From: an uncultured Elusimicrobia bacterium
GTDB lineage: Bacteria; Elusimicrobiota; Elusimicrobia; Elusimicrobiales; UBA9959
Direction: 5' to 3'
NCBI GenBank assembly: GCA_903879915.1
Contig: CAIRNJ010000052.1
Span: 1-43,622, forward strand
Length of the DNA: 43,622 bases
Positions 6,844 to 42,380 of the stretch are shown here, in pieces. A program made the translations under genes and the position numbers. The first letter of the stretch is position 1. Each line of letters opens with the position of its first letter. Under the pieces are notes generated by a model that ran no database searches, was not told the origin of the DNA, and was given only the letters and a program-made list of their open reading frames with translations.

Positions 6844-7512
6844 ATGCGCGTCCTGATCGCAGAAGACGAAAAGAAAATCGCCGATTTCATAAAGCGCGGC
6901 CTTAAAGAAGAAGGCTACGCGGCCGACGTCACGCATTCCGGCGACGAGGCGCTGATGCTGGCCGAAGAGAACCCCTACGACCTGCTGCTGCTGGACGTGA
7001 TGCTGCCGGGCCTGGACGGCGTTACCGTCTGCTCGCGCCTGCGCGCCGCGGGCTTCGCCGCGCCCATCCTGATGCTGACGGCCAAAGACAGGGTGGAGGA
7101 CAAGGTAAAAGGGCTGGACTCGGGCGCCAACGACTATCTCACCAAGCCTTTCGCCTTCGAGGAACTGCTGGCCCGCATACGCGCCCTGCTGCGCGCCCGG
7201 CCCGAGGCCCCCTCCACGCTGCTCAAAGCCGGGGACATAGCGCTGGACCTTGCGGCCCATAAGGCCCGCCTGGCCGGCCGGGAACTGGACCTGAGCGCCA
7301 AGGAATTTTCGCTGCTGGAATACCTGGTGCGCAACAAGGACAGGATCGTCACCCGCACCATGATAGCCGAACACGTGTGGGACATAAACTTCGACACCGG
7401 CACCAACGTGATAGACGTCTACATAAATTATCTGCGGCGCAAGCTCGAAAAAAGCCCGGCCCGGAAAGTAATACACACCGTCAGGGGCAAAGGCTACATT
7501 CTTAAAAGCTGA
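6844..7512 (+). CDS. OmpR/PhoB-family response regulator
   Basis: A 222-aa transcription regulator. The N-terminal receiver has the acidic pair at Glu7-Asp8, phosphoacceptor Asp51 (LLLLDVMLPGLDG) and Lys101 (LTKPF). The C-terminal winged helix, about 125-222, shows the usual sequence LSAKEFSLLEYLVRN, then TRTMIAEHVW, then NVIDVYINYLRRKL and a final VRGKGYIL. It starts 7 nt after uxs and its stop overlaps the kinase start by one base (TGATG at 7510-7514), so all three are probably one transcript. The target genes are unknown. Confidence 0.95.
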   Translation: MRVLIAEDEKKIADFIKRGLKEEGYAADVTHSGDEALMLAEENPYDLLLLDVMLPGLDGVTVCSRLRAAGFAAPILMLTAKDRVEDKVKGLDSGANDYLTKPFAFEELLARIRALLRARPEAPSTLLKAGDIALDLAAHKARLAGRELDLSAKEFSLLEYLVRNKDRIVTRTMIAEHVWDINFDTGTNVIDVYINYLRRKLEKSPARKVIHTVRGKGYILKS

Positions 7513-21081: not shown

Positions 21082-22860
21082 TTATTTTCCCGGCAGCGCC
21101 TGCAGGGCGCGCAGGCCGGCGGCGGCTTCTGCGTAGTCCGGCTTAAGCTCTAGGGCTTTTTCGTAATGCGCCCCGGCTTTCAGGAAAAGCCCGCGGGCCT
21201 CGGCTTGCTGACCCCAGGCATAGACCACCTCGCCTTTCTGCCTGCAGGCCAGCGCCAGGTTGTAATGCAGTTTTACGGCCCCGGGCTCGGTGAGCAGCGC
21301 CGTTTCAAAGGCCGCGATGGCGCCGTCGTAGCGCCGCTGCCGCGCGAACACGATGCCCAGGTTCACCCGCGCGTCCAGGTCGAGGGGGTCGCGCTTCAGC
21401 GCCTCCCGGAACGCCAGTTCCGCCGCCGTCAGGTCGCCCTCGCCCAGGTGCGCCAGGCCCAGCGTGTTATAAGGCAGCGGGAACTTATCCGTGACCGGAG
21501 AGAGCCTGAGCGCCCGCAGCACCAGTTCCCGGGCTTCCGCGAATTTTCTGCGCTCCACCTGTGCCTGGGCGGCGTTGACCAGCGCCCGCACGGAAGCTGG
21601 CGAGGTGGCGGCGGTCTTCACGAAAAGTGCGTTGTCGTCCCGCCAGTCGCGGTTGCGCGTGAAGCTGCGGCCGGCGTAAAGGCAGAGCAGCAGCGCGGCG
21701 GCCAGCGCGGGCAGCGCCCCCCGGCCCCTCGGGAAGGCCATAGCCGCCAGCAGGCAGAAACCCGCGGACGGCAGATACAGCAGCCGCTCCGCCATGATAG
21801 TGCCTATGGGGAAGGCCATATTCGAGACGATAGTGAAAGTGAGCAGGAAGAAGCCGGCGGCGAACAGGACCTCCCGGCGGCGCCCGGCCCAGCGCCAGAG
21901 CAGGCCGCCCGCGGCGGCCAGGCCCGCGGCGGCGGAAAGGTTCCGCAAAGACAGCACGCCGAGCAGCGGGATGGCGTTGGGCGAATAATCGGCCGACAGG
22001 GTGCCGGGATAAACGCAGAGCAGGAGATAGCGCCACAGGATATAAATAGCGTTCGAACACCTTTGAAAGAACGGCAGGGCGGCCAGCGGGTTATCCAGTT
22101 CCAGCGCCGCGCCGCCTACGGGAACCGCCGCCGCGCCCGCGCCCGGCACGAAAGCCCCGATAGCCAGCCGGCGGTAAAGGATGTACGCGCCCGTAAAAAC
22201 CGCCAGCAGCAGGCAGCAGCGCACAACGCGCCGCCAGCCGCCGGCGGCAGGCTTCAGCCAGGCGAGCGCGGGAACCAGCAGTATGAAAGTGGCGGCGCTT
22301 TCCTTGGAAAGGAGGCCGAGAACAAAGAAGCCCGCAGCCCAAAGGCGCCGCCCGCGGCCGTAAGCCAGGCAGGCCAGCAGCACGAACAGCGTAGCCAGCA
22401 GGTCGGCCCGGCCCACTATGGAATTGAGCGCCTCGGTGTGTATGGGATGCAGCGCGAACAGCAGCCCGGCGAGCATCGGTACCGGCCCGGCCAGCCCCAT
22501 AAATTCCGCCAGGCGTACGATAAGAACGCTGTTGGCCGCGTGGAGCGCAAGATTAACCGCGCGGAAAGCCGCGGGGTCCGGCCCGCTAAGCTTCCAGTTA
22601 AGGGCGAAGCTGGTAGAGGTAAGGGGCCGCCAGACAGTATCGTCCTTGTCCGGGAACCAGGAGGCGGGCTCCGTCCAGAGCCCCTTAATATCCGCCCGCG
22701 TCACTTTCCTGTTCTCGACTATCACCCGCCGGTCGTCGAAAACGAAAGCGTTGGGCAGGGAATTGCCGAAAGCGGCGGCCACGGCGGCCGCCAGCACGCA
22801 GGCTTCCAGCCAGCGTTTAAGCTTCCAGCCTCCCGCTTTATCCCCGGTGGTCCGCGGCAT
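21082..22860 (-). CDS. TMTC-like membrane glycosyltransferase with C-terminal TPRs
   Basis: A 592-aa protein with about 10 hydrophobic segments in residues 18-405, then tetratricopeptide repeats (about 420-585). Early motifs FVFDDRRVIVEN, RPLTSTSFALNW, HPIHTEALNSIVGRADLLA and LLSKESA, and later MAERLLYLPSAGF, match the TMTC/GT-C pattern, in which a lumenal DD motif is catalytic and a polyprenyl-phosphate sugar is the donor. In animals TMTCs O-mannosylate cadherins; bacterial members are usually uncharacterised. The DD at about 42-43 is the likely active site. Donor and target are unknown; a secreted or surface protein substrate is plausible. Confidence 0.75.
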   Translation of the reverse strand: MPRTTGDKAGGWKLKRWLEACVLAAAVAAAFGNSLPNAFVFDDRRVIVENRKVTRADIKGLWTEPASWFPDKDDTVWRPLTSTSFALNWKLSGPDPAAFRAVNLALHAANSVLIVRLAEFMGLAGPVPMLAGLLFALHPIHTEALNSIVGRADLLATLFVLLACLAYGRGRRLWAAGFFVLGLLSKESAATFILLVPALAWLKPAAGGWRRVVRCCLLLAVFTGAYILYRRLAIGAFVPGAGAAAVPVGGAALELDNPLAALPFFQRCSNAIYILWRYLLLCVYPGTLSADYSPNAIPLLGVLSLRNLSAAAGLAAAGGLLWRWAGRRREVLFAAGFFLLTFTIVSNMAFPIGTIMAERLLYLPSAGFCLLAAMAFPRGRGALPALAAALLLCLYAGRSFTRNRDWRDDNALFVKTAATSPASVRALVNAAQAQVERRKFAEARELVLRALRLSPVTDKFPLPYNTLGLAHLGEGDLTAAELAFREALKRDPLDLDARVNLGIVFARQRRYDGAIAAFETALLTEPGAVKLHYNLALACRQKGEVVYAWGQQAEARGLFLKAGAHYEKALELKPDYAEAAAGLRALQALPGK

Positions 22861-32997: not shown

Positions 32998-34107
32998 ATG
33001 AATAATTATACTACAGTCGTTGGGCTGGATGTCCACAAAGAAAGTATTGTTGCGGCGGTGCTGCCCTACGGGCATAAAGATGTGGTTGAGCAGGTAAGCA
33101 TTGCGAACAATCCCAAGGCGATTGAAAAACTTATCAATCGCCTGACAAGGCAGGGCCCGACAGAATTTGTATATGAAGCTGGACCCTGCGGATACCAGAT
33201 ACAGCGGCAAATTGCAGGATTGGGGTACCGCTGTGCGGTAATCGCACCATCGCTGACGCCGGTGCGGCCTGGCGACCGTGTAAAAACGGATAAGCGCGAT
33301 GCGGTAAATCTGGCACGATTTTATCGGTCCGGTGATTTAACGGAGATCCATATCCCGACGTGCGAAGAAGAAGCTGCCAGGGACCTGCCGCGTGCCAGAG
33401 AGGATGTTCTTAAAGATAGATTGCGAGCCCGGCACCGGTTGTCTAAGTTTTTGTTGCGGCAGGGGCGAGTATTTCAGGAAACAAAATCCTGGGGCACGGC
33501 TTATAAGGCATGGCTAAGAACCCAGAAGTTTGAATGGCCTGCACTGCAACAGACTTTTGAAGCCAATATGAGGGCGCATGAGGAAGCGGAAGCCCGCCTT
33601 GAGCTGTTGGAACAGCAGACATATGAGCTGGCTCAGCAGCCAGCGTATCAAATGGCGGTAAATTATTTGCGTACGCTCAAAGGCATCGACACCTTAGGGG
33701 CGCTGACATTGGTGGTTGAAGCGCAGGATTTTCGGCGTTTCAGTAAGGCCAGCGAGTTTATGAGTTTCACGGGATTGGTAGGTTCAGAGAACAGTTCTGG
33801 CGAGAAGGTGCAGCGCGGTAGCATTACAAAGGCCGGCAACGCGCACATCCGGCGTGTTTTGGTGGAGGCGGCCTGGTCGCAGCGTTATCCTAATGTGATG
33901 AGCTTGCAACTGGCTGAACGGCGCAAGGGCTGCCCACCTGAAGTTCTCAAGATAGCGAAGAAGGCACAGGCACGGCTGCACAGAAAGTTCCTGCGAATGA
34001 CTAGCAGGAACAAACTGCACCAGGTAACGGTAGTTGCGGTGGCGCGGGAACTGGCCGGCTTTGTGTGGTCCATCGGTCAGCATATTCCTGCTGCGGTGGC
34101 GGCCTAA
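32998..34107 (+). CDS. IS110-family DEDD transposase (recombinase)
   Basis: A 369-aa RNA-guided recombinase of the IS110 family. The RuvC-like N-terminal domain carries Asp11 (VGLDVHKE), Glu60 (VYEAG), Asp98 and Asp101 (KTDKRDA). A coiled coil follows (about 185-215), then the Tnp domain with the predicted catalytic Ser275 in RGSITKAGNAHIRRVL. All residues are present and the frame is intact, so it may be active. The ATG has GGAGG about 9 nt upstream. Codon and base use are less GC-rich than the flanking genes, as expected for a mobile gene. Confidence 0.95.
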   Translation: MNNYTTVVGLDVHKESIVAAVLPYGHKDVVEQVSIANNPKAIEKLINRLTRQGPTEFVYEAGPCGYQIQRQIAGLGYRCAVIAPSLTPVRPGDRVKTDKRDAVNLARFYRSGDLTEIHIPTCEEEAARDLPRAREDVLKDRLRARHRLSKFLLRQGRVFQETKSWGTAYKAWLRTQKFEWPALQQTFEANMRAHEEAEARLELLEQQTYELAQQPAYQMAVNYLRTLKGIDTLGALTLVVEAQDFRRFSKASEFMSFTGLVGSENSSGEKVQRGSITKAGNAHIRRVLVEAAWSQRYPNVMSLQLAERRKGCPPEVLKIAKKAQARLHRKFLRMTSRNKLHQVTVVAVARELAGFVWSIGQHIPAAVAA

Positions 34108-36058: not shown

Positions 36059-36192
36059 CGAAAGCAGCGCCAGAACCGCCTACACCTGGTACGCTTCCCC
36101 GGATGGCACCATACATTGCACCACCCCGCTTTAGCTCTTCACGAAATATTGTAGAATTGTCAATGAGAAATGCCGACGTAGCTCAGCGGTAG
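36059..36192 (+). pseudogene. 3' remnant of a related tyrosine integrase
   Basis: An open frame here ends ...APYIAPPRFSSSRNIVEL then SMRNADVAQR and TAG. The intact integrase at 41235-42329 ends ...APRIAPPLINAPINFVEL then the same SMRNADVAQR. The shared last ten residues come from the att repeat and tRNA, but APxIAPP and its spacing lie outside that repeat, so this is the tail of another copy. The 5' boundary is uncertain because the similarity fades before 36059. The rest of that gene and its element are gone. Confidence 0.6.
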
Positions 36193-36210
36193 AGCAACCG
36201 CCTTGTAAGC
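36149..36210 (+). repeat. Left att direct repeat of the integrative element
   Basis: 62 bp matching 42286-42347 with one difference (T at 36171 against C at 42308). It covers 23 bp of tRNA upstream sequence including TAGAAT and the first 39 bases of tRNA-Thr, to just past the anticodon. Crossover therefore lies within this block, most likely in the anticodon arm. Confidence 0.9.
36172..36210 (+). pseudogene. 5' fragment of tRNA-Thr(TGT)
   Basis: The first 39 bases of the tRNA-Thr at 42309 are repeated here exactly: acceptor 5' strand, D-arm and anticodon up to GC of the 3' anticodon strand. The sequence then departs (CCGCAGAAGC), so no tRNA can form. It is the half left behind when the element recombined into the gene. 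Confidence 0.9.
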
Positions 36211-36471
36211 CCGCAGAAGCATTCAGTTGGAGTGAGCCCGGCTCAGTTCCCCGTCGTAAACCCAAAACCTAATTTCGCCAGAGTAAGCCTGATTACGTTG
36301 GATTCAGTTGGCCGGATTGCACCAGGAATTGCACCACACTTGCCACCGTCAGAACTGGCCTAAATTACGGAGAGGGGGGACGGTCAGTGGTTAAGCCAGT
36401 AATGAGCGTACAGTAACCCCGAAACTTACGCAAGAGAATTCATCGCACCACCGTATACGGTAAAAAAACGC

Positions 36472-36843
36472 TCACTTGTTTAATGGAGTGCCTCCTGTTT
36501 TTGTAAATTTTATCACCGTGCCATGTACGCGGATTGTTTGCCGACACCAAAACGGGGGAAAAGCCCATGTCTCATGTTCCGCAACAGTATTAATAAGCGC
36601 ATCCCCCTTTTTTGACTCAACCGCCACGTCGATAGCCTCCCCTACTGAATAACTCGTGTCCAGGCTATCGCTTATAGGGATTACACACAAAAAATATCCA
36701 CGGCTACTCACACCCTTACCTGTCCCCAAGACTTCCATAGCGTCGGAAGAAAAGTTCATACTGGAAACCATTGGGGTCACATGTGTACAACCGGATAGCA
36801 ATAGGCAACAGATTATAAAACAATAACCTAAAATATTTTTCAC
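36472..36843 (-). CDS. Element-borne small lipoprotein, GTG start
   Basis: A 123-aa lipoprotein: the signal sequence ends in LLLSGC (Cys19). The mature part contains GKGVSSRGYFLCVIPISDS, then KKGDALINTV and a Cys-containing segment FPPFWCRQTIRVHG; two mature cysteines could pair. The DALIN segment and overall length resemble TRL-type small lipoproteins, but I do not claim the family. The start is a GTG at 36843 with AGGAGG 8 nt upstream. It lies in the AT-rich integrative element and is not needed for integration or replication, so it looks like a cargo gene acting at the host envelope. Confidence 0.68.
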   Translation of the reverse strand: MKNILGYCFIICCLLLSGCTHVTPMVSSMNFSSDAMEVLGTGKGVSSRGYFLCVIPISDSLDTSYSVGEAIDVAVESKKGDALINTVAEHETWAFPPFWCRQTIRVHGTVIKFTKTGGTPLNK

Positions 36844-36954
36844 TAATGAGCCCTCCTACACCGGAAACCTCTAATACGATATAATATAAAAAACCTATTA
36901 GGAAGGCACTCTCCTACAGCATAGTATTGGGCGAGTTTGGTTGCCACGAATGAA

Positions 36955-37086
36955 CTAAACTTTTTTCGCTTTTCCCATTATACGGGCAACATTTCCTGGC
37001 CCGATTGTTGTAAGGACAAGAAGGAGCCCTAGTAAAAGCCAGAAGCCCGAATCCAGTCGCACGTTTATGTCGCAATTAATCGGCAT
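36955..37086 (-). CDS. Possible 43-residue membrane peptide
   Basis: A short ORF starts inside the end of the RHH gene (ATG at 37086; overlap ATGCCGATTAA) and encodes 43 residues. One hydrophobic span, FWLLLGLLLVLTTIG (15-29), is followed by a basic tail GKAKKV, as in small single-span membrane proteins. There is no ribosome site of its own; translation would depend on coupling to the upstream gene. It could be a real accessory peptide or a chance ORF. Confidence 0.4.
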   Translation of the reverse strand: MPINCDINVRLDSGFWLLLGLLLVLTTIGPGNVARIMGKAKKV

Positions 37087-37300
37087 TTTTAAATATTCGG
37101 CAAGGGCTTATTAAACACCCCGGTGTTTCCGTGTTTGCCGCCTCCAAAATAACTTCCGGTTTTGCTTCCCGATTTTCCACAAATGAATTTGCCATTATTT
37201 CTATGGCTTTCATTTTGGGAATGTTCATTTTCTCCGACATTTCGGAAAGAATTTTATATACGCTTTCCGGAGCTTGAACTGCATACGTTTTTTTTCTCAT
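37076..37300 (-). CDS. Small ribbon-helix-helix-like regulator
   Basis: A 74-aa protein. The N-terminal half (KKTYAVQAPESVYKILSEM then SEKMNIPKMKAIEIMANSF) has the strand-helix-helix pattern of CopG/Arc DNA-binding proteins; the tail carries two cysteines. The ATG at 37300 has GGAGG 5-6 nt upstream; a longer ORF adds five residues. Two operator-like palindromes lie directly upstream (37313-37327 and 37344-37355), pointing to autoregulation. It may be an antitoxin or an element copy/lysogeny regulator; no toxin-like partner is evident apart from the small membrane ORF overlapping its end. Confidence 0.65.
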   Translation of the reverse strand: MRKKTYAVQAPESVYKILSEMSEKMNIPKMKAIEIMANSFVENREAKPEVILEAANTETPGCLISPCRIFKNAD

Positions 37301-37605
37301 AATCACCTCCGCCAAACATTATGTTTGTATATTAAATTACCAACAAACATTATGTCAATAAGGATTTTAAAAGGCTTACAACAACCCCACACAAATGCGG
37401 CCAAATCCATATTCATTAAATTACTTATTATTTTAAAACCCCAGTTTGCAGACAGGCCTCTCAATGGTCACAATTTAGTCGGTGGGCACAAGCACAAGCC
37501 CCATAATCCGGAACCAAGTAAAAAAATAGGTAGAATATATACCATTGGGGAAATATAAGATTAACAATCTTGGAGTTTGTGTCCCAAGAATCAGGAGGAG
37601 GGATA
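37301..37605. other. Divergent intergenic region inside the element
   Basis: It contains the operator-like palindromes at 37313-37355 near the minus-strand RHH gene and, at the other end, an AT-rich run with TAGAAT/TATATA (about 37531-37543), which may be the promoter of the lipoprotein gene at 37606. Nothing coding is seen. Confidence 0.5.
37313..37355 (-). promoter_or_regulatory. Twin operator-like palindromes before the RHH gene
   Basis: CAAACATTATGTTTG at 37313-37327 is a perfect 15-nt palindrome. CAAACATTATGT recurs at 37344-37355, 31 bp away, about three helical turns. The AT-rich spacer TATATTAAATTA between them could hold the promoter. The layout suits a dimeric autorepressor. Confidence 0.55.
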
Positions 37606-38061
37606 ATGAAAAAATTCTGGATAGGGGTTTTGTTCTTGGGATTGGTCGGTTGTGCTACAATGCCCGACGTGATGCTAAACACTCCATCTGGTAGACCAGA
37701 AGTAAGTATTCAGAATGCAACTAAAAAACAAGTGATGGATGCTATTATAAATCGGGAATTGTCTAAGTCCTGGGATTTGAAAAGCCAATCAGATTCACTT
37801 CTTGTGTTTTCTCACAAAGTTACGGGGTTTGCTGCGGCTTTAGCTTATGGGTCACAATATGACAGTACCCCAGAGCAGCGTGGGACATTTACTTTAGTTG
37901 ATTCGGGAAATGTAATTAGAGTTTTGCTTAAAGTTGAAATGGTAACAAATCCTGGCAGCGCGTATGAGCGCACTAGTGATGTGACACTTGGGAAAAATGC
38001 CGCACCGTTACAAACTACTTTAGAGGAAATAAAAGCTTCTTTAACACCTTTAAAAAAATAA
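37606..38061 (+). CDS. Element-borne lipoprotein, unknown function
   Basis: A 151-aa lipoprotein with signal sequence MKKFWIGVLFLGLVGC (Cys16). The mature protein begins with a segment PEVSIQNATKKQVMDAIINREL, then mixed strands (DSLLVFSHKV, GTFTLVDSGNVIRVLLKVEMV) and a final helix. I do not recognise the family; the layout resembles small outer-membrane lipoproteins with one alpha/beta domain. The ATG has GGAGG 8 nt upstream; an in-frame start at 37570 would bury the signal. Base use is far more AT-rich than host genes. It diverges from the minus-strand lipoprotein group and is a cargo candidate. Confidence 0.72.
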   Translation: MKKFWIGVLFLGLVGCATMPDVMLNTPSGRPEVSIQNATKKQVMDAIINRELSKSWDLKSQSDSLLVFSHKVTGFAAALAYGSQYDSTPEQRGTFTLVDSGNVIRVLLKVEMVTNPGSAYERTSDVTLGKNAAPLQTTLEEIKASLTPLKK

Positions 38062-38086
38062 CCCACGACAGCAATATACCCCCCAT

Positions 38087-38135
38087 GAGTCTGTCCGACA
38101 TAAGCCCAAGTTTTGGAGTTATGTCAGACAGGCTC
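38087..38135. repeat. Imperfect 17-bp inverted repeat
   Basis: GAGTCTGTCCGACATAA (38087-38103) and its near-complement (38119-38135) pair with two mismatches around a 15-base loop. No T-run follows, so it is not a typical terminator. It may be a small mobile palindrome or a protein-binding site. Confidence 0.6.
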
Positions 38136-38231
38136 CTAGGTCGCCGCGACCAGCGGTTTTATTGCCGGTGCTTTCTTTTGTCTTTGCCATTGAGGGCCGC
38201 CTTTTGAAGCCTTATTTGTTTTTGCAAATAA

Positions 38232-38261
38232 TTGGAGTTAATTGAGATAACAGGCTATAGA
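38232..38261 (+). promoter_or_regulatory. Possible promoter of the hypothetical gene at 38288
   Basis: TTGGAG, an 18-nt spacer and TATAGA, ending 26 nt before the ATG. Both hexamers match the sigma70 consensus at only four of six positions. Confidence 0.3.
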
Positions 38262-38287
38262 CTGGCAATGAATTACATCATAATCTT

Positions 38288-38989
38288 ATGACACTTGAAC
38301 CCAAAATACTGGCCTGTATTGATTGTCAATACCTCTCACAATTACGGCGCGGGGAAATGACCACAGCAGGCCCCTATAATGTCAATCCGGATGTGCGGAC
38401 ACAAATCCGGGACAACGCTTATAATTGGCGGGACAACAGCTTCTATTTTTATTGTAGACGTGGGGTATGGGTAGAGCGAACGAACGCCAGGAAAGCAGCG
38501 CGGCGCAAATTGCGAAGTGTAATAGTAGAGACCGACCAGGGGATCAAGCAACCCGCTTCCTGCGTTTTTAGTTTTTATACCCCGCGAATCAGTTTTCCGG
38601 ACATTATTACTTCCCCCAAAACGCCCACTCCATTAGCGTCCGGGGAAAAAATTAAATTGCGTTCTCAAAAAATCAGCTTTGACGACGAAACCGCAACAAT
38701 AACAATCGGGCAGTCCAAAATAAAATTACCCCCAAATAAATTTGAACATTGCTTTTGCCGCGTGATGTTTTCCAAAAAAGTCAACAAGGCCATTTCCTGG
38801 GAAACTGTATATGAGAAAGCAATAGGGAATGACGACGCCGTAATGGTTGGGCAAGCCATATCCGCCCAACAACAATGGCATCGAGTGTATGATATTGCCA
38901 AAGCAATTAATAACCGAATAAAAAAGGAAATGCACACCGATGACAAGTTGTTTACTTGCGGGGAAGATGCCATAGAAAGAAACTTTTAA
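38288..38989 (+). CDS. Element protein with possible C-terminal winged helix
   Basis: A 233-aa protein without signal or membrane spans. The last 100 residues (from ITIGQSKIKLPPNKFEHCF through ISWETVYEKAIG to IAKAINNRIKKEMH and LFTCGED) follow the order of a response-regulator-type winged helix: strand pair, helix, recognition helix, closing hairpin. The N-terminal half has CIDC near the start and no known fold. I cannot name a family. There is no ribosome site at 38288; an internal ATG at 38357 is preceded by GGGG and could be the true start. It precedes the replication genes and may regulate them. Confidence 0.6.
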   Translation: MTLEPKILACIDCQYLSQLRRGEMTTAGPYNVNPDVRTQIRDNAYNWRDNSFYFYCRRGVWVERTNARKAARRKLRSVIVETDQGIKQPASCVFSFYTPRISFPDIITSPKTPTPLASGEKIKLRSQKISFDDETATITIGQSKIKLPPNKFEHCFCRVMFSKKVNKAISWETVYEKAIGNDDAVMVGQAISAQQQWHRVYDIAKAINNRIKKEMHTDDKLFTCGEDAIERNF

Positions 38990-39032
38990 ATATTGACTCT
39001 ACTTGAGTCAACTAACGGTTTGTCATACTAAA

Positions 39033-39063
39033 GCCAGAGCAAAAACATGCTTTGGTTTTTTTA
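39033..39063 (+). terminator. Terminator before the replication genes
   Basis: Stem CCAGAGC/GCTTTGG (one G-T pair) with an eight-base loop followed by TTTTTTTA. It lies about 45 nt past the stop of the gene at 38989, so the replication module downstream has its own start site. Confidence 0.75.
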
Positions 39064-39114
39064 TTTTATGTGATGAGCAAAAAAGAATAGGTTGCGGTTA
39101 TAGAAAAGGAAATT

Positions 39115-39825
39115 ATGTCTAAACGCTTCACGGCAACAGATAAATGGGACCACCCGTGGTTCTCCCGGCTTTCAGATGCGGATAAGCTGTATTGGTTCTA
39201 CCTTTTGGATAAGTGCGACCATGCCGGGATATGGCGGGTCAACTGGCCCCTGGTAAAGTTTCATATTAAAGGGAAGATAAACCCGGATGCTTTCAAGGAT
39301 AGGGTTGTTGTGCTAAGTGCAGAGAAGTGGCACATCCCTGAATTCATCGCCTTCCAATACGGTGAGCTTAACCCTCAAAACAACGTCCACCGTTCTGTTA
39401 TCTCTATACTTGAGAAAGCAGGGGCTGCCCAGCCCCTACCTAGGTCCTTACAAGGACCTATGGATATGGATAAGGATAAAGTCGAAGATAAAGCTAAAAA
39501 TATTAAGAATAAGAGAACAGTAGCCCCTTTTACTTTGCCGGATTGGGTCCCCCCCGCTGCCTGGCAAGCCTACGTGGAAATGCGCACAAAAACCCGGAAG
39601 CCGATGACCGAGACGGCTATGGGTATAGCAATTAATAAATTATCTGATTTGAAGGAGCAAGGCTACGACCCGCAAAAGGTGTTAGAGCAGAGTATCTTCA
39701 ATTCCTGGCAGGGGCTTTTTCCTTTAAAAGACACCGGACAGCACAAGAGTGCGGCGGCCCCGATACCGGGGAAGTATGACCATGTAAGCATAAAAGCAGG
39801 AGGAAACAATAATGGAAAACGCTAA
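39115..39825 (+). CDS. Phage-type replication initiator (replisome organiser-like)
   Basis: A 236-aa protein. The N-terminal winged-helix region starts FTATDKWDHPWFSRLSDAD and continues LYWFYLLDKCDHAGIWRV, a pattern common in phage replication proteins that bind the origin. A charged hinge (MDMDKDKVEDKAKN) follows. The C-terminal domain (from about 140, PDWVPPAAWQAYVEMR to FNSWQGLFPL) resembles the DnaD/DnaT-like helicase-loading segment. AAAGGA lies 6 nt before the ATG. It overlaps the DnaC-like gene by 14 nt, the usual initiator-loader pair of temperate phages. This indicates that the element can replicate, or once could, using the host DnaB helicase. Confidence 0.82.
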   Translation: MSKRFTATDKWDHPWFSRLSDADKLYWFYLLDKCDHAGIWRVNWPLVKFHIKGKINPDAFKDRVVVLSAEKWHIPEFIAFQYGELNPQNNVHRSVISILEKAGAAQPLPRSLQGPMDMDKDKVEDKAKNIKNKRTVAPFTLPDWVPPAAWQAYVEMRTKTRKPMTETAMGIAINKLSDLKEQGYDPQKVLEQSIFNSWQGLFPLKDTGQHKSAAAPIPGKYDHVSIKAGGNNNGKR

Positions 39826-40558
39826 CAAATTCGGCGCGGACTTCCTGGAACGAATGGAAGAGAGATATAGAGAGAGGCGGGAGTTGGAGGCCAAAGCCCC
39901 AAAGTGCCCGGTATGTAACGGCCCCGTGTTGGATGGCGGCTGTGACTTATGTGCGGAAAGAGCCGAGCAAAAGCGCCGGAAGCAGGAGCAGGATGCGGCA
40001 CAGCGTGCACTGGATATACGGCGATTAGGCGGAGAGAGGGCTTACCGGGAGTTTACCCTTGAGGGGTACAAAAATAAACATGTCATTGACTTGTGCAACA
40101 GTTACCCGGCCAAAAACCTTTATATCTGGGGGTCGCCTGGTGTGGGTAAGACCCATCTTGCCACAGCCCTTGTGCGGCAGTATCAAGACGCGCGTGTGGT
40201 AAAGCCTCAGGACATATTCTGGGACTGCCGCGCCGCTAAGACCGTGGAGGAAGAGAGGGCGGTTGTGCATCGGTTTGTAAAGACGGGGCATCTGGTAATT
40301 GATGACCTGGGCATAGCCAAGAATACGGAATTTAATTCCTCCATCCTTTACCTGATACTGGACGGGCGCGACATGGCCGAACGCTCAGGCCTTATCATAA
40401 CAAGCAATCTTTCTCCGGGGGCTTTGTGTGCCCGCCTTGATGATGACCGCCTTCCATCACGCATCTTCGGAAGGGGCACTATCGCAATAGACCTGATGGG
40501 TGAGGATGGAAGGCTATATTCCAACAACAAACCTACTGGGAAAAAACTTGAGTTATAA
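39812..40558 (+). CDS. DnaC-like AAA+ helicase loader with zinc finger
   Basis: A 248-aa ATPase. An N-terminal helical region is followed by a zinc-binding CPVCNGPVLDGGCDLC (about 32-47). The AAA+ core has Walker A GSPGVGKTH (about 107-115), Walker B HLVIDDLG, sensor I in LIITSNLS and an arginine-finger candidate in LPSRIFGRG. It belongs to the DnaC/DnaI/IstB-like group; the neighbouring initiator and lack of a transposase favour helicase loading over IstB. The ATG at 39812 has AGGAGG 8 nt upstream inside the previous gene. Confidence 0.88.
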   Translation: MENANKFGADFLERMEERYRERRELEAKAPKCPVCNGPVLDGGCDLCAERAEQKRRKQEQDAAQRALDIRRLGGERAYREFTLEGYKNKHVIDLCNSYPAKNLYIWGSPGVGKTHLATALVRQYQDARVVKPQDIFWDCRAAKTVEEERAVVHRFVKTGHLVIDDLGIAKNTEFNSSILYLILDGRDMAERSGLIITSNLSPGALCARLDDDRLPSRIFGRGTIAIDLMGEDGRLYSNNKPTGKKLEL

Positions 40559-40559
40559 A

Positions 40560-40745
40560 ATGAACCAGCACAAGCTGATTGAAAAAGCATGCGAGATTTG
40601 CGGGCGGAAGTTTCCGGCCAGGGCTTCTGATAAGCGGGCGAACCGAGGCCGGGCATGCTCTTTTAGGTGCTCGGGGCGGTTAGGGGCCACCGCAAAGAAA
40701 AACCTCAACAAAGCGAAGCCGCGCACCCCTTACGCGCCGCTTTAG
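40560..40745 (+). CDS. Small zinc-finger-like protein
   Basis: A 61-aa basic peptide with four cysteines arranged CEIC(GRKFPARASDKRANRGRA)CSFRC, a treble-clef or HNH-like knuckle that could bind zinc and DNA. It begins 2 nt after the DnaC-like gene and is probably translated by coupling. A function in element replication or as an incomplete endonuclease cannot be separated from sequence; the catalytic His-Asn part of an HNH enzyme is missing. Confidence 0.6.
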   Translation: MNQHKLIEKACEICGRKFPARASDKRANRGRACSFRCSGRLGATAKKNLNKAKPRTPYAPL

Positions 40746-40790
40746 CGAGCGATTGGCAAAGTCAACTAGTAGCAGAAAAAGGAGCACACT

Positions 40791-40991
40791 ATGGAAAACC
40801 GGTTAATCGACATAAAGGAACTGTCGGCGTATATAGCAACGCCCGTAACTACGATATATGGTTACGTATACTCAAAAACAATTCCGGCCGACTGCATTAT
40901 AAGAATCGGCAGGAGGCTAAAGTTTGATAAGGCGGCGGTGGACCGGTGGATTAGCGGGATTGCTGCTGCTCAAGCCAACGCTCCAAAATGA
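40791..40991 (+). CDS. AlpA/excisionase-type HTH protein
   Basis: A 66-aa MerR-like winged HTH. The sequence reads RLIDIKELSAYIATPVTTIYG then YVYSKTIPADCIIRIGRRLK and FDKAAVDRWISG, the HTH_17 layout used by excisionases and AlpA activators of integrases. AAGGAG lies 8 nt before the ATG. In P4- and PICI-like elements this gene controls excision. Its 3' end overlaps by 41 nt a convergent small RHH gene on the other strand, so transcription of the two may interfere. Confidence 0.85.
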   Translation: MENRLIDIKELSAYIATPVTTIYGYVYSKTIPADCIIRIGRRLKFDKAAVDRWISGIAAAQANAPK

Positions 40992-41124
40992 ACTCAATTT
41001 GAGCGTTAAGGGTTCGATGCTCTTTTTGCGCGATAGCGGCCAAGGCTTTATACGTTGTCGCCGCAATTCTCAGCGGATAGGCGCTTCTCTTCGGCTTTGT
41101 CGGCTTAGTCTTCGGCGTGGTCAT
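40951..41124 (-). CDS. Arc-like RHH repressor, 57 aa
   Basis: A short antisense ORF of 57 residues. After a basic N terminus (TTPKTKPTKPKR) it reads SAYPLRIAATTYKALAAI then AQKEHRTLNAQIEFILERWL, the full strand-helix-helix of the Arc/CopG family with its typical 'R.LN.QI...L' second helix. It is convergent with the AlpA-type gene and divergent from the integrase gene, whose promoter is 44 nt away. Tandem ATATCACC words lie in that gap. It is therefore a good candidate for the integrase/excision repressor. There is no strong Shine-Dalgarno. Confidence 0.72.
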   Translation of the reverse strand: MTTPKTKPTKPKRSAYPLRIAATTYKALAAIAQKEHRTLNAQIEFILERWLEQQQSR

Positions 41125-41148
41125 ACAAATGAGTATATTTTATTTTAA

Positions 41149-41167
41149 ATATCACCGCAATATCACC
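41149..41167. promoter_or_regulatory. Tandem ATATCACC operator-like repeats
   Basis: ATATCACC at 41149-41156 and again at 41160-41167, 11 bp apart (one helical turn), directly touching the integrase -35 box. A related ATATCACT is at 41212-41219. Spaced direct words of this kind are usual for RHH dimers. Confidence 0.5.
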
Positions 41168-41196
41168 TTGACATTCACCTTTGTTGGCGTTATACT
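41168..41196 (+). promoter_or_regulatory. Consensus sigma70 promoter of the integrase gene
   Basis: TTGACA (41168-41173), a 17-nt spacer and TATACT (41191-41196): a near-perfect housekeeping promoter. Transcription should start near 41203, about 32 nt before the integrase ATG at 41235, which rules out the upstream TTG start at 41181. Confidence 0.85.
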
Positions 41197-41234
41197 ATAT
41201 ATGTCTGTTTGATATCACTTTGTATCATATCAAT

Positions 41235-42329
41235 ATGTCCGTATTTAAGAAGCGGGGGAGGTGGTGGATTTTATACCGGCTTGCCAACCGCAAGTGGAGA
41301 CGGGAGCCTGTCGGCACGAGTTATACTTTAGCCAAACAGGTTGAAGCGAAAAGAAAAGCCGAAGTGGCGGAAGGCCGTTTTTTCCCAGAGCGCAAGACAA
41401 ATAGACAGAACTTTCAGGAAATATCGGACAATTACTTTAAATTGCACGGCCAGAACCTACGCTCAAAATCATGGAGCCAGATGATGCCCCGCATTATCGC
41501 CGCCATTGGAGCAAAACCCATCGGCAACATAACGCCGCAGGATATTCAAGCCTTCTATAATCAACTGGAATCCACCTCATCGACCTCAACCGCGAACCGG
41601 CACTTGACCCTTATTAAGGCTATTTTCAACAAAGCCAAAGCGTGGGGCACTTTTCATGGGGAAAACCCTTGCGCGGCAGTAAAGAAGAAACGGGAGCCGA
41701 ACCACCGGCTAAGATACCTGTCAGAACCGGAAATAAAAACCCTGACGGAGAACTGCCACCCGCGCCTATACCCTGTTGTAGCCTGTGCCCTCATGACCGG
41801 CATGAGGCGGGGAGAACTACTAAATCTGGATTGGCGGGATATAGACTTCGGCAGCAACGTTATACAGATACTTAAATCAAAGTCCGGAAAGCCGCGAGAA
41901 ATACCAATGATGCCGACCCTGCGGGCTATTCTAGAGAACCTCGGTACCCCCCACACCGGAAACGTTTTCAACCTGCCCGCCATAATGCTCAGAAGGTACT
42001 TCGCAAGGGCCTTGGCGGCCTCCTCAATCACTTCTTTTCGTTTCCACGACCTTCGCCATACCTTCGCCTCTCATTTCGCCATGAAGGTCAAGGATATACC
42101 CGCCCTGCAAAAGATACTCGGTCACGCGAGTATTCAGATGACCATGCGATATGCCCACCTGAGCGACACCCACACGGCCGCGACGATGACTCAACTATCA
42201 AAGTCCATGCCGATTGCGCCTTGCACCACGCCTACCCAAATTGCACCCCGGATTGCACCACCCCTAATTAACGCGCCGATAAATTTTGTAGAATTGTCAA
42301 TGAGAAACGCCGACGTAGCTCAGCGGTAG
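41235..42329 (+). CDS. int: Tyrosine-type integrase ending inside tRNA-Thr
   Basis: A 364-aa site-specific recombinase. The order is an N-terminal arm-binding strand domain (SVFKKRGRWWILYRL), a SAM-like core-binding domain (about 65-150) and a catalytic domain with Arg in MTGMRRGELL, Lys in KSKSGKPREIPM, His-x-x-Arg in FHDLRHTFAS, His in ILGHASIQ and the Tyr nucleophile in MRYAHLS. The C terminus continues through the att repeat into the tRNA, with the TAG stop formed by bases of the tRNA D-arm (42327-42329). A near-consensus promoter lies upstream. No ribosome site is seen. Confidence 0.95.
   Translation: MSVFKKRGRWWILYRLANRKWRREPVGTSYTLAKQVEAKRKAEVAEGRFFPERKTNRQNFQEISDNYFKLHGQNLRSKSWSQMMPRIIAAIGAKPIGNITPQDIQAFYNQLESTSSTSTANRHLTLIKAIFNKAKAWGTFHGENPCAAVKKKREPNHRLRYLSEPEIKTLTENCHPRLYPVVACALMTGMRRGELLNLDWRDIDFGSNVIQILKSKSGKPREIPMMPTLRAILENLGTPHTGNVFNLPAIMLRRYFARALAASSITSFRFHDLRHTFASHFAMKVKDIPALQKILGHASIQMTMRYAHLSDTHTAATMTQLSKSMPIAPCTTPTQIAPRIAPPLINAPINFVELSMRNADVAQR
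42220..42260. repeat. Arm-type ATTGCACC repeats at the right end
   Basis: ATTGCACC at 42240-42247 and ATTGCACCA at 42252-42260, 12 bp apart, with a further TTGCACCA at 42221-42228. The same 12-bp spacing is seen inside the left end (36316, 36328) and outside it (36103, 36115). They lie within the integrase coding sequence (repeated IAP residues). Confidence 0.6.
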
Positions 42330-42347
42330 AGCAACCGCCTTGTAAGC
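42286..42347 (+). repeat. Right att direct repeat of the integrative element
   Basis: Matches 36149-36210 at 61 of 62 positions. It contains the -10 box TAGAAT (42289-42294), the tRNA 5' end and anticodon arm, and the last residues of the integrase. The intact tRNA is on this side. Confidence 0.9.
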
Positions 42348-42380
42348 GGTAGGTCGAGAGTTCAATTCTCTCCGTCGGCT
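42309..42380 (+). tRNA. tRNA-Thr (anticodon TGT)
   Basis: 72 nt folding as a cloverleaf: acceptor GCCGACG/CGTCGGC, D-arm GCTC/GAGC, anticodon stem ACCGC/GCGGT with loop CTTGTAA (anticodon TGT, reading ACA), variable AGGTC, T-arm GAGAG/CTCTC with TTCAATT loop. CCA is not encoded; a run of T follows. Its 5' half and -10 box lie in the att repeat, so after integration the gene uses promoter sequence supplied by the element. Confidence 0.95.

Follow-up and report, generated by a model that had tools for sequence, protein, structure and literature searches.

Gene content of the tRNA-Thr locus

The window, i.e., the whole 43.6-kb stretch of DNA analyzed here, contains an integrative element of about 6.1 kb whose right end lies within a tRNA-Thr(TGT) gene (Table 1). 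This gene is the sole full match for this tRNA in an own-genome search of the assembly. The resident element encodes a lipoprotein, an O-like replication protein, a DnaC-like loader, an excisionase-like HTH protein, and a tyrosine integrase. Homologs of the HTH protein adjoin integrases in three other genomes (G155, G157, and G159). At its 3′ end, the integrase gene extends across the right arm into the start of the tRNA gene, and its frame stops within the tRNA. No capsid or transfer genes were recognized in 36211-42329, and phage and viral collections gave distant matches to the integrase (at most about 36% identity) and no closer relative. The element could be either a satellite or an integrative element that replicates. 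Farther left, an IS110-type transposase gene (32998-34107) is located between cinA and an ABC-F gene, and it is not present there in the sister genome G002.

Table 1 Features at the tRNA-Thr locus (arm assignments are putative).
Feature	Position	Strand	Details
Probable truncated right (P) arm of an earlier element	36091..36148	+	38/57 identical to 42228-42284; decamer table over about 25 sites
Decamer ATGGCACCAT in the left-flank remnant	36103-36112		Position -69 from tRNA start; two mismatches
Decamer ATTGCACCAC in the left-flank remnant	36115-36124		Position -57 from tRNA start
Core repeat	36149..36210	+	-10-like region and 5′ half of tRNA-Thr through the anticodon loop; 61/62 identical to 42286-42347
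Displaced tRNA-Thr 5′ fragment	36172-36210	+	tRNA part of the left core
Resident integrative element, about 6.1 kb	36211..42347	+	Pfam and PHROGs
Left (P′) arm of the resident element	36211..36337	+	ATTGCACCAG at 36316, ATTGCACCAC at 36328
Excisionase-like HTH protein	40791..40991	+	PF12728, phrog_66
Intact tyrosine integrase	41238..42329	+	PF00589, E = 3.7e-29; G155 homolog 70% identical (amino acids), same tRNA
Right (P) arm decamers of the resident element	42220..42261	+	Positions -89, -69, and -57 from tRNA start
tRNA-Thr(TGT), 5′ half element-supplied	42309..42380	+	ARAGORN; own-genome search

Similarity between the left flank and the right end

The left flank and the right end of the element align without gaps over 120 nt (36091-36210 and 42228-42347; 83% identity). 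The core repeat within this alignment has a single mismatch, at position 36171. Its identity extends to 36210, just past the anticodon, with 36211 as the first differing base, and ends at the same place in G155, a genome from another genus of the same family. The crossover appears to lie in the anticodon loop of tRNA-Thr. Beyond the 62-bp repeat, 36091-36147 matches 42228-42284 in the same register at 67% of positions, against 26% expected (binomial for a fixed register, p about 2e-10), and 21 of 37 positions still match when both decamer sites are left out (p about 8e-5). The original prediction that the similarity reaches beyond the att repeat is therefore borne out: it had named likeness confined to the 62 bp as its refutation, and the DNA alignment gave no such confinement. 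The similarity it placed at 36059-36192 is real, but that start is about 30 bp too far to the left; the true start is near 36091, as 36059-36090 has no similarity to the resident right end and 36050-36090 matches at 8/41 positions, which is the chance level.

At the protein level, the frame of the left flank terminates in RMAPYIAPPRFSSSRNIVELSMRNADVAQR and the intact integrase in QIAPRIAPPLINAPINFVELSMRNADVAQR. A tblastn comparison of the two frame ends yields E = 2e-8, most of which is derived from the repeat, and no integrase sequence remains to the left of 36091. The decamer ATTGCACCAC (one mismatch or fewer) occurs in eight copies in the window versus 1.8 expected, and seven of these lie at the element ends. 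The copies sit just inside the left end, with a third inner decamer at 36442, and under the 3′ end of the integrase gene, where the integrase frame reads them as 'IAP-IAPP'. The -89 decamer of intact right ends is absent from the left flank. For a tyrosine integrase with a lambda-type mechanism, arm-type sites are expected as direct repeats on either side of a core, and from their position and repetition, the decamers look like candidate arm sites of the integrase. The similarity outside the repeat thus appears to be mainly attachment-site DNA rather than a leftover of integrase coding sequence. A comparison of the intact integrase genes of the window and G155 gave 7, 7, and 7 differences at the three codon positions in the arm stretch and 80, 60, and 174 in the gene body. 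With 21 differences, the even spread in the arm stretch is no more than suggestive. The "tail of a second integrase" that had been proposed here was overclaimed. What is shared outside the repeat is mainly putative arm-site DNA, and the APxIAPP residues, which had been taken as a coding remnant, probably come from that DNA being overlapped by the integrase frame.

The left junction has the order right arm, core, left arm (36091-36337). With a probability of roughly 85%, we interpret this as a tandem junction in which the left flank retains the truncated right end of a predecessor whose attachment-site family was that of the resident. The earlier presence of a related element at this tRNA, now mostly lost with its body and left end gone, had been predicted and is well supported.

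Comparison with the sister genome

The ABC-F gene, the left-flank remnant, the core, and 127 bp at the start of the element recur in the sister genome G002 (95% identical) with about 95% identity. The junction is common to both genomes; therefore, it predates their split and does not stem from misassembly of either. The two sequences diverge right after the second inner decamer (7225-7226 of G002 locus L135; 36337-36338 of the window), and the interior is replaced while both flanks are kept. The G002 interior spans 1.1 kb and contains one gene of 283 codons and no integrase gene; decamers at -69 and -57 mark the right arm in which it ends. This element (L135 7226-8284) is located between two tRNA cores, and its gene product looks secreted and has a weak RHS-repeat match. 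It is possibly a non-autonomous element moved in trans.

The G002 element is a present-day right end of this kind without an integrase gene, which is a further reason why "second integrase" is too strong. Within the preferred reading, the earlier occupant might never have carried an integrase gene and might instead have been a small arms-only element like that of G002, relying on a family integrase in trans for its movement. We consider this version plausible, at odds somewhat short of even. The G002 element has both arms, its right arm and the left-flank remnant of the window are cut off at about the same place (-81), and in the interval -46..-24 the remnant matches the G002 right arm best (18/23, versus 12/23 for the resident integrase end). 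However, a truncated integrase gene would look alike, and the frame is open up to the tRNA in both cases, although 27 open codons carry little weight.

tRNA-Thr sites in other genomes

Decamers are missing from all 17 tRNA-Thr sites that lack this element type. In G155, the gene for the homologous integrase likewise terminates within this tRNA, decamers lie at -89, -69, and -57, and the left end, on a separate contig, has decamers inside and none outside. The left end in G159 is likewise clean. Decamers outside the element are thus not left by a first insertion, and their presence in the window indicates that an older right end was already there. At -69 and -57, decamers score 8-10/10 in the left flank of the window, in the right ends of the window, G155, and G002, and in the left flank of G002; those of G011 also score 8-10/10, displaced by 1 nt. 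The highest score anywhere in -120..-30 is 7/10 for the 17 sites without this element type and the clean attL sites of G155 (contig C17) and G159 (contig C69). At the left (P′) arm, the left ends of G155 and G159 match the window at 83-84 of about 128 aligned positions, and that of G002 at 122/127. The inner left-arm pattern was found in only four of the 340 genomes of the phylum (G000, G002, G155, and G159).

These sites bear on the proposal that the decamers and promoter region are native DNA upstream of the tRNA, the integrase end being alike through attP copying the host. While attP indeed copies the 5′ half of the tRNA and the -10-like region, decamers are lacking at the 17 sites that do not hold this element type and at the two clean left ends, and they also occur at the inner left end of the element, which makes this proposal highly improbable. 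The near-identity of the core might instead suggest that the resident right end was recently duplicated or copied by gene conversion. We regard this as equally far-fetched: only 38/57 positions match outside the core, whereas the left copy is common to G002 at 54/57. Furthermore, when the right ends of the window and G155 elements, both intact but distinct, are compared, 37/58 positions match, which is similar to 38/57 and indicates that the remnant is not a recent copy. Similarity by chance or confined to the repeat merits next to no credence, because even though the region is short and free-register scores of this size turn up occasionally in real sequence, the fixed-register p value is about 2e-10 and the decamer spacing is kept.

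The same tRNA is also occupied elsewhere. In G011, what precedes it is a truncated integrase end that has undergone an internal deletion and has the decamers. More distant integrases (51-52%) use it in G157 and G154, with different repeated words, TTGGGTACAA and TGGACACC, close to the integrase end; these elements (L178 on G157:C28 and L182 on G154:C41) belong to other integrase subfamilies, and that of G157 is 11.7 kb long. The tRNA-Thr(TGT) gene is an insertion hotspot, and the original proposal that related elements have used it repeatedly finds support in the clean left ends, the sister genome, and the independent decayed right end in G011. Genes for a primase-polymerase and a TrwC relaxase are located upstream of the G155 integrase (L165 6352-9281) and suggest that some relatives are mobilizable.

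A TPR gene (L181 5370-7118) abuts the half tRNA in G155. The gene is present in only four of 59 family genomes; its copy in the window (21082-22860) lies 13.3 kb to the left of the site, and that in G002 about 5 kb away. The distance in the window implies that its left flank has been rearranged, and the comparison of the TPR gene yielded no breakpoint.

Proposed history of the locus

We observe that the junction exists, that G002 shares it, and that clean left ends and sites without the element lack it; from this we infer the following order of events. Elements of this family appear to cross over in the anticodon loop of tRNA-Thr(TGT), with an attP that carries a -10-like promoter part together with the tRNA 5′ half. 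Integration then leaves the former 5′ half behind on the left and rebuilds the tRNA downstream of a region derived from the element. After entry of the earlier element, a deletion may have removed its body and left end, sparing the last ~80 bp before the tRNA. Deletion is the probable cause, since precise excision would take the right arm away with the circle. The rebuilt tRNA would then have served as attB for a second element, the ancestor of the resident, and the order right arm, core, left arm would have arisen.

A search for the left end or body of the earlier element, using a third half-tRNA and core in the 22.7-36 kb interval, gave a best match of 28/59, which is random. cinA was rejected as a gene of the lost element because 46 of 59 family genomes carry it as a single-copy gene. 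As for ABC-F, only G000 and G002 of 41 genomes gave a match to the protein at E ≤ 1e-150, which does not place its gene in an element.

Tentatively, decayed elements of this 5′ type might keep their last ~80 bp because the only tRNA-Thr(TGT) of the host is transcribed from them, leaving a general fossil record and ready half-sites for the next element. The left flank of the window and G011 are the lone right ends of the kind proposed as fossils. A scan before tRNA-Thr gave no full match to the sigma-70 consensus, so the promoter argument is based on the conserved -10-like region. If true, the host needs the end of the element to transcribe tRNA-Thr, which would be simple to test. With clean controls, the locus records how one family of elements probably inserted more than once into a single tRNA gene of a little-studied bacterial lineage. 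A further lesson is that arm-site DNA can mimic a protein-coding remnant where an integrase gene overlaps its own attachment site.

Comparison with known systems

Accretion beside decayed elements is well described for CIMEs and tandem accretion, including ICESt1-type and IME tandems (PMC5704250). The present locus resembles these systems in site-specific insertion, decay with loss of the integration genes, and a second insertion at an att site containing the target gene. Integration genes are absent both upstream of 36091 and from the 1.1-kb element of G002, and the segment 36091-36337 joins a right arm (-69/-57), a shared core, and a left arm (36316 and 36328), as in tandem accretion. However, the remnant in the window also lacks its left end and retains the right att site only; it is a lone right end and not a CIME. 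The 1.1-kb element of G002, which is flanked by both att sites and has no integrase gene, fits the integration part of the CIME definition. That definition also calls for descent from an element with conjugative transfer genes; of the earlier element in the window the body is gone, and the relative in G155 has its TrwC relaxase gene near the integrase.

In the Islander collection, a 5′ tDNA fragment was found in 159 of 3919 islands (PMC4383910). Our element is similar to these islands: the 5′ half is displaced upstream, the tRNA is rebuilt at the far end in the same orientation, the crossover probably lies in the anticodon loop, and the gene for the integrase, with its PF00589 catalytic domain, lies between the fragment and the tRNA. 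It differs in that the integrase frame crosses the candidate arm sites into the tRNA and that an older right arm lies outside. The decayed integrase tail in G011 is comparable to the left flank of the window in that a right end with decamers precedes tRNA-Thr and the integrase body is gone; in contrast to the window, no second element follows in the available sequence. The locus is a case of decay and accretion at a tRNA site, in the rarer version with a 5′ tRNA fragment, and each of its steps is of an established kind.
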